A DNA stretch of 36,987 nt from Candidatus Komeilibacteria bacterium CG11_big_fil_rev_8_21_14_0_20_36_20 (GTDB taxonomy: Bacteria > Patescibacteriota > Patescibacteriia > UBA1558 > GWA2-36-10), in contig PCWQ01000012.1 of NCBI GenBank assembly GCA_002787405.1, forward strand, positions 39,471-76,457. The letters run 5' to 3'. Below the pieces are notes generated by a model. That model did not search any database. It saw only the letters and a list, made by a program, of their open reading frames with translations, and was not told the DNA's origin. The first letter of the stretch is position 1; each line of letters begins with the position of its first letter. The position numbers were made by a program, and so were the translations under genes. This document shows positions 15,763-23,053 of the stretch, one piece after another.

Positions 15763-15837
<75 letters not shown>

Positions 15838-15889
15838 AAGTTAATAATATATTTTAATATTCCTTGCCAATGCCTGATTTCAAATATTT

Positions 15890-16255
15890 TTACCACTGCC
15901 TGTCCCGAGCGAAGTCGAGGGAAGCTACCGTGGCTTGATAATTAATTTTATTTTCTATTTTTCTTGTTTCTTTTATCTCTATCAATGTAAAACTGATCTT
16001 TGCTCCAATCTCTTTTTCTAAATCTATATCAAATATTCCAGCCAGATGCAATGCTCTCAAAACAACATCTCCTAACTCTTCGGCTACACTATCTCTGCCT
16101 TTCATTTTCCCCTTCCTATATGCCTCTAATACCTCTGAAATTTCAGCATGTAATAAAGCTAATTTTTCACCAAAGATAATCTCATCTGGCTTAGTACCCC
16201 AATTTTTTTCTTGGGCTAAATCCAAAATTAATTTTTATAAATCTTTTAGGTTCAT
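15890..16255 (-). pseudogene. Broken MazG-like nucleotide pyrophosphohydrolase
   Basis: The body is MazG-like: WGTKPDEIIFGEKLALLHAEI, SEVLEAYRKGK and AEELGDVVLRALHLAG carry the EExxE/ExxD helices that bind Mg-NTP. Such enzymes hydrolyse non-canonical NTPs. The natural ATG appears to be at 16255 (MNLKDL), but codon 7 is TAA (16235-16237), probably a former CAA. A TTG at 16225 could restart. The C-terminus is also odd: the last about 10 residues come from a palindromic repeat (15897-15925), and a plausible family-like ending lies in another frame. Confidence 0.65.
15897..15925. repeat. GAGCGAAGTCGA-type palindromic repeat
   Basis: GTCCCGAGCGAAGTCGAGGG forms an imperfect palindrome and is related to the GAGCGA...GTCGAAGGG tract in the 23S helix 25 expansion. 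It supplies the 3' end of the MazG-like reading frame. Confidence 0.5.
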
Positions 16256-16277
16256 ATTTTTAAGGCAAGCTGACTGT

Positions 16278-16294
16278 TGGGCATGAGAGGACTT
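16278..16294 (-). pseudogene. 3' fragment of a second tRNA-Ile
   Basis: Seventeen bases match the 3' end (T-loop end, T-stem strand, acceptor, discriminator A) of the intact tRNA-Ile with one difference. Its T-stem partner AGAGG survives, but the T-loop is interrupted by a GC-rich palindrome (CCCGC...GGCGGG). CCA is not encoded. Confidence 0.6.
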
Positions 16295-16351
16295 ACCCGC
16301 CACAAGCGGATCCCGCTTTGCGGGAAACCTCTCAATGATATGAGTCCACAC

Positions 16352-16428
16352 TGGTGGGCATGGGAGGACTTGAACCTCCGACCCCTACATTATCAGTGTA
16401 GTGCTCTGACCAGCTGAGCTACATGCCC
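16352..16428 (-). tRNA. tRNA-Ile (GAU), intact
   Basis: Acceptor GGGCATG/CATGCCC, D-arm GCTC...GAGC, anticodon loop CTGATAA with anticodon GAT, T-loop TTCAAGT, encoded CCA. All arms pair. It lies between fragments of another tRNA-Ile copy. Confidence 0.95.
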
Positions 16429-16458
16429 GCTAGTATGGGCTCACATGTATTTAAAAGT

Positions 16459-16508
16459 CGACCCCTACATTATCAGTGTAGTGCTCTGACCAGCTGAGCT
16501 ACATGCCC
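16459..16508 (-). pseudogene. 5' two-thirds of a second tRNA-Ile
   Basis: Fifty bases identical to the first 50 of the intact tRNA-Ile (acceptor 5' strand through anticodon arm and variable loop), offset by exactly 80 bp. The T-arm and 3' acceptor are missing. Confidence 0.9.
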
Positions 16509-16625
16509 AACAGTCAGCTTGCCCTAGTTTAATTTTATTATGGCGTGGCCCCGCTTACACGGATGACCAATTACCTACCCTTAAATAAATTATTAACTAT
16601 ATATAAATATACAACAACAGAAAAG

Positions 16626-16654
16626 ATAATACCAGAAAAAATGGTTTTTGACAA
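16626..16654 (-). promoter_or_regulatory. Candidate promoter for the tRNA-Ile region
   Basis: TTGTCA (16649-16654), 17-nt spacer, TATTAT (16626-16631) on the minus strand, about 110 nt upstream of the first tRNA-Ile sequence. The remaining 16524-16839 is AT-rich. A 60-codon plus-strand frame there has no ribosome-binding site or family resemblance and is not called. Confidence 0.5.

Positions 16655-21568: not shown

Positions 21569-23053
<1,485 letters not shown>

Follow-up and report, generated by a model that had tools for sequence, protein, structure and literature searches.

The tRNA-Ile gene of a genome of the Candidatus Komeilibacteria order, Patescibacteria (G000; 978 kb, 23 contigs, 97% complete), lies nested between the two halves of a second, broken tRNA-Ile. 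This nest, located in the stretch of 36,987 nucleotides analysed here (the window), is probably, with a likelihood that we put at about 0.6, the ORF-less product of a SegB-like process in which nucleases drive the splitting and regeneration of tRNA genes, a process recurring in Ca. Komeilibacteria and, more thinly, in other Patescibacteria. The same architecture is present in further genomes, the broken copies keep a constant side and strand with respect to the intact gene, and they are associated with one clade of GIY-YIG genes, remnants of which are also found in G000.

On the minus strand, the nest (16523-16264) consists, in this order, of a 5' half-tRNA-Ile, a spacer, an intact tRNA-Ile, a second spacer, and a 3' half-tRNA-Ile. 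The 5' half (16459-16508) comprises nucleotides 1-50 of the tRNA, matches the intact copy at 50/50 positions, and ends in GGTCG at the border between the V-loop and the T-stem, a breakpoint shared with the tRNA-Ile of genomes G001 and G008 and with a tRNA-Gly of G000. It is followed by spacer 1 (30 nt, 16429-16458), the intact tRNA-Ile(GAU) with its encoded CCA (16352-16428, detected by ARAGORN), and spacer 2 (18 nt, 16334-16351). The 3' part of the broken copy (16279-16333) holds the T-arm and the acceptor strand; its CCA has decayed to ACA, and its T-loop contains a double GC hairpin (TCCCGCAAAGCGGGATCCGCTTGTGGCGGG, 16296-16325). A first-pass annotation of this DNA had described a 50-nt half, a 30-nt spacer, an intact tRNA-Ile with CCA, and a final half whose T-loop is interrupted by a GC palindrome, and each of these elements lies where it had been placed. 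A covariance-model scan, also suggested there, recovers the intact tRNA-Ile with 76.2 bits (Rfam).

The two outer halves are closed by a 22-bp inverted repeat with perfectly matching arms, of which G000 holds no further copy. As had been noted, this stem adds 15 flanking bases to the acceptor pairing: the left arm (16523-16502) unites 15 nt of the outer leader with the 7 nt of the acceptor 5' strand, and the right arm (16285-16264) the 7 nt of the acceptor 3' strand with 15 nt of the trailer, so that the outer acceptor stem contributes 7 bp and the outer leader/trailer stem 15 bp. A comparable stem surrounds the inner tRNA: a leader arm in spacer 1 (16446-16433) pairs with a trailer arm in spacer 2 (16351-16338) at 13 of 14 positions, two of them as G-U. 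The nest is thus a hairpin-borne intact tRNA within a split tRNA that has such a stem of its own. The 264-nt minus strand of the nest folds with -131 kcal/mol (z = -8.7), and none of 200 dinucleotide shuffles was equally stable. Leader/trailer stems around tRNA-Ile are retained despite sequence change in seven genomes (that of the window and those with loci L008, L015, L018, L019, L020, and L021); as a general tRNA feature of these genomes, they are unsupported (p = 0.27, to be read as a guide to effect size). The exact pattern of the 5' half had no match across the searched collection of named genomes, and in phage records the only matches were ordinary tRNA-like stretches.

The intact tRNA-Ile belongs to an Ile-Phe-Pro-Gly tRNA cluster that is conserved, with tRNA-Ile inside, in the 17 genomes checked, including that of the window. 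Ahead of the nest there is a promoter-like site (TTGTCA-17-TATTAT with an extended -10, TGGTATTATC; 16626-16654, minus strand), and the corresponding motif, CTTGCCAAAA...TGGTATTATC, is found directly upstream of the single-copy tRNA-Ile in relatives. Both the conserved position and the promoter-like match suggest that the intact gene is an ordinary, syntenic and functional member of the cluster, one that the nest has moved about 200 nt away from its promoter, and it would be the expressed copy. The tRNA cluster and protein genes separate the 16S (21569-23053) and 23S (1-2805) rRNA genes of the window, which share a strand and lie about 18.8 kb from each other.

The adjoining tRNA-Phe retains a trace of a nuclease gene. 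Reading the minus strand, a 5' fragment of tRNA-Phe with a GC hairpin in its D-arm (AGCT^CAG; 15892-15934) is followed by a 54-nt GIY-YIG gene remnant that corresponds to the 3' end (15838-15891, reading KYLKSGIGKEY*) and by the intact tRNA-Phe(GAA) (15763-15837, ARAGORN). The remnant aligns to a GIY-YIG ORF of G006 with a score of 31, compared with 9 for the best of 2000 shuffles, and this homologous ORF is complete in G006, where it likewise lies between a broken and an intact tRNA-Phe. The interval between tRNA-Ile and tRNA-Phe (15890-16225 in the window; L006, L018, L009, L010) holds, in the same place, a MazG-like or a GIY-YIG ORF depending on the genome. G000 has further GIY-YIG ORFs at other tRNAs: the one at Gln is truncated, the one at Ser is interrupted, and that at Asn is intact. 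Neither of the two spacers at Ile, of 30 and 18 nt, contains a recognisable GIY-YIG sequence, the only remnant in the window being that at tRNA-Phe, so that the assignment of the Ile nest to this process rests on its architecture and company rather than on a direct trace.

A search of related genomes for the arrangement, as proposed in the first-pass annotation, revealed that nests recur. In G008 there is one at tRNA-Ile, whose broken copy shows the breakpoint mentioned above and carries hairpins in both its D-loop and its T-loop, and there are others at Leu-CAA and Asn; in the latter, a TCCCGC/GCGGGA hairpin has taken the place of the anticodon arm and bears the inner tRNA at its tip. G016 has a nest at Asn, G023 one at Met with a GIY-YIG ORF inside, and G064, from elsewhere in the phylum, one at Thr; Cys in G057 and Val in G063 are probably nests as well. 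In the Met nest of G023 (L232), the 5' and 3' broken copies share about 27 tRNA positions and the same hairpin, resembling a long target duplication. The sequences of G008 Leu and G064 Thr, in which inner and outer copies differ, point clearly to the origin of the outer halves: these pair at 7/7 acceptor positions with each other and at only 4-6/7 with the inner tRNA, which indicates that they are one split gene and not two copies of the inner one. The Ile half-copies of G000 and G008 each resemble the intact copy of their own genome, which suggests either independent origins or concerted evolution. Certain 3' matches at tRNA positions 46-77, which looked like conserved halves, proved to be the T-arms of the adjoining tRNA-Pro.

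Broken copies are far from restricted to nests. Partial copies on the same strand within 700 nt were found for 48 of 153 tRNA entries, compared with 11 on the opposite strand, and those upstream are 5' parts of the tRNA and those downstream 3' parts (p = 2e-6; as the surveys share loci and the genome sampling is non-random, this and the other p-values are guides to effect size and not exact probabilities). The tRNA parts of broken and intact copies are 97-100% identical; their leaders are mostly unrelated. GC hairpins are present in most broken copies, where they favour a handful of positions. At least eight copies have a hairpin of the TCCCGC..GCGGGA type in place of the T-arm, right after GGTC(G) (Gly in G000; Ile in G001; two Asp, Gly, two Ala, and Val in G008; the Asp copies of G403 likewise). 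Only six TCCCGC hairpins are present in 754 kb of G000, at least four of them within broken tRNAs (Ile, Gly, Ser, and, by reading, Pro), a rarity that rules them out as a genome-wide REP family.

Several of these copies deserve separate mention. Upstream of the intact tRNA-Gly(GCC) of G000, a full-length copy (L062, contig C4, 1408-1480) is identical to it at 49 of 50 positions over nucleotides 1-50, the lone mismatch turning the anticodon GCC into GCT, and its 15-nt T-arm is swapped for a 15-nt hairpin, TCCCGCGTTGCGGGA. Downstream of an intact tRNA-Asp in G403 (L163), its 3' end occurs in three tandem copies of 45 bp, nearly identical to one another, that each carry TCCCGCTCAGCGGGA instead of the T-arm. 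Broken copies of Tyr and Thr from different genomes (L227, L255, L146) have their anticodon loop split at TG^TAAA by one and the same double hairpin, CCACCGCC..GGCGGGGTGCCGC..GCGGCA. The open frame of a GIY-YIG gene crosses a broken-tRNA hairpin in L011 (about 1693-2010, with the peptide LPAGRQG) and, running into a 3' broken copy, in L236, so that hairpins can become coding. These hairpins may be scars of repair, elements in their own right, or changes that block the tRNA folding of the broken copy.

The company of GIY-YIG genes was surveyed throughout the order by means of PF01541 matches over the cut-off, and 92 ORFs were examined. Forty-four of them are located at 300 nt or less from a tRNA, all co-oriented with it, and wherever the nearest tRNA lies within 1000 nt the orientation is again the same in every case. 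Among comparable ORFs of G000, used as a control, 8.6% are near a tRNA, without strand preference (p = 9e-23, again indicative of effect size). The tree of these proteins separates a tRNA-associated clade, with 42 of 63 members near a tRNA, from another with 2 of 29. Hardly any variation is seen in the alignment at the Y, YIG G, R, H, E, and K positions. The order broken tRNA, GIY-YIG ORF, intact tRNA of the same type, or its mirror image, recurs at Gln, Lys, Tyr, Pro, Ser, Trp, and other tRNAs, and a Ser array (L242) reads broken-GIY-broken-GIY-intact. Amplified tRNA segments accompanied by truncated nuclease genes are thus represented by the Phe and Gln remnants and by the array of L242. In a wider but smaller sample of the phylum, 9 of 29 GIY-YIG ORFs are near a tRNA, eight of them co-oriented, and broken copies are found again.

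Homing endonucleases cleave cognate alleles and are preferentially inherited. By analogy with phage SegB, it is postulated that small free-standing GIY-YIG endonucleases of a single clade reside at tRNA genes and cut them, and that recombinational repair of the cut would regenerate one intact tRNA among the pieces of the old gene. Of the broken original, a 5' piece would persist upstream of the intact tRNA, or a 3' piece downstream of it, or the two together, and the nuclease ORF between the pieces would later be eroded or lost, leaving an ORF-less nest like that at Ile, which presumably once housed a nuclease. Since tRNAs are essential and exist mostly in one copy, no outcome that lacked a working gene would survive, which would account for the inner and the outer tRNA being of the same type. 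The first-pass annotation had thought of a mobile element or a duplication; such a process is indeed likely, and what was missing there is the context of half-tRNAs and GIY-YIG genes. Several observations count against nuclease-driven splitting: about half of the GIY-YIG ORFs of the order lie away from any tRNA, no nuclease is located near many of the broken copies, the GC hairpins are unaccounted for by homing as it is known, and broken and intact copies are for the most part preceded by unrelated sequences, contrary to what simple tandem duplication predicts. A bolder proposal is offered tentatively, and we would not give it even odds: Patescibacteria would harbour undescribed tRNA-splitting elements, in which a GIY-YIG clade invades essential single-copy tRNA genes, the insertion brings or regenerates a tRNA of the same type, and a GC hairpin typical of the site disarms the original by replacing or interrupting one of its arms. 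Under this proposal, tRNA genes would pass through continual cycles of splitting, nesting, and erosion.

The polarity of the broken copies would also follow from any partial tandem duplication, since a gene that breaks internally is bound to leave its 5' part upstream and its 3' part downstream. Without any nuclease, these loci could have arisen by slippage or template switching at tRNA genes, on account of their own DNA hairpins, the GIY-YIG genes having just settled in dispensable DNA, and both the many breakpoints at stem bases and the clear tandem units with duplicated spacers (Thr and Asp in G008, Ser in G017, Asp in G403) are in line with it. This explanation is nonetheless considered doubtful, because it leaves the strict same-strand association with one GIY-YIG clade unexplained; moreover, the nuclease ORFs sit between broken and intact copies, and leaders are mostly unrelated next to nearly identical tRNA parts. 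It is improbable that the hairpins themselves are mobile, with palindromes or hairpin-borne tRNAs inserting into or replacing tRNA arms and the intact tRNA as cargo. The exact replacement of the T-arm after GGTCG in Gly, Ile, Asp, Ala, and Val copies and the inner tRNA-Asn at the hairpin tip in the anticodon-arm position of G008 would fit such an element, for which the inverted-repeat replacement by IS1272 offers a precedent (PMC5678879); the scarcity of TCCCGC hairpins in G000, the lack of a shared transposase (a Y1 transposase is present in G000 and absent from G001, G008, and G012), and the inner tRNA being always of the outer type speak against it.

A maintained function of the 260-nt nested transcript, in tRNA processing or as a decoy, would agree with the very stable fold and with the stems kept in seven genomes, and yet it is very improbable: most relatives carry a single tRNA-Ile without a nest, which rules out a nested function conserved across the family, the outer copies lose arms, T-loop, or CCA, and the leader/trailer stems are not general. 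The processing device envisaged in the first-pass annotation finds nothing in its favour beyond these ordinary stems. The assembly chimera also raised there, or a collapse of repeats, deserves almost no credence; G000 is indeed a draft in 23 contigs, but the same architecture recurs in independently assembled genomes from unrelated projects.

A nuclease encoded on the chromosome that keeps splitting and rebuilding essential single-copy tRNA genes would exert a strong influence, so far unrecognised, on how tRNA genes evolve in a very large group of bacteria. It would also provide a way, open to testing, in which tRNA genes become disrupted and tRNAs replaced. Counts of tRNAs and "pseudo-tRNAs" in these genomes call for cautious reading.

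Among known systems, split and permuted tRNAs of the archaeal type are joined from halves, via a bulge-helix-bulge, into the sole copy of a tRNA; an intact tRNA-Ile is present here, and such joining would not be needed. No Rfam family of self-splicing group I introns reached the gathering score in the window. REP/RAYT elements comprise many dispersed palindromic copies mobilised by a Y1 transposase, unlike the six hairpins of G000 and the patchy occurrence of that transposase. Mitochondrial repetitive hairpin elements (PMC2800124, PMC7813641) are, as here, short GC hairpins located within and near RNA genes, with stems better conserved than loops; those described here concentrate in broken tRNA copies and are rare elsewhere in the genome. 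With the transposition of IS1272, these loci share the replacement of a hairpin rather than an insertion with target duplication, although no IS element or transposase is seen at the sites. As at integrase att sites in tRNA genes, the tRNA is regenerated and a displaced fragment is left. However, the Ile nest has no integrase or recombinase gene between its tRNA repeats, nor room for one, and instead of the single displaced 3' (or 5') end, present as a direct repeat, that integrase elements leave, both halves are kept around a complete copy, with inserts of tens to hundreds of nucleotides across the sites; the earlier view that this is not a standard att site holds.

The disrupted tRNA-Thr of Caldiarchaeum (PMC3293823) likewise shows, on one strand, a 5' tRNA fragment, a mobile-element gene, and a complete copy. 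It differs in being archaeal, in its recombinase/pNOB8-type integration with a 1.8-kb insert and the gain of an intron, and in having no nested 3' half. A search of open-access papers found no report of GIY-YIG genes with tRNA genes in the CPR. In phages T4 and T6, SegB is a free-standing GIY-YIG homing endonuclease of tRNA clusters (PMC13096335, PMC2988022), and that of T6 cuts within tRNA genes and drives the tandem amplification of tRNA together with a C-terminally truncated segB (PMC13096335). In contrast with SegB, the loci described here are on bacterial chromosomes, the regenerated tRNA has broken copies of its own type at its sides, these copies contain GC hairpins, and the putative nucleases have about 80-100 aa, cleavage being attributed to them by analogy. 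Shared with SegB are the GIY-YIG domain, independence from introns, the location beside tRNA genes of many isotypes, and the tandem amplification of tRNAs with a truncated nuclease gene. Free-standing GIY-YIG nucleases that dwell among phage tRNA genes are documented, and SegB (PMC13096335, PMC2988022), together with the archaeal tRNA fragment accompanied by a recombinase (PMC3293823), is the nearest relative in the literature of the elements proposed here.
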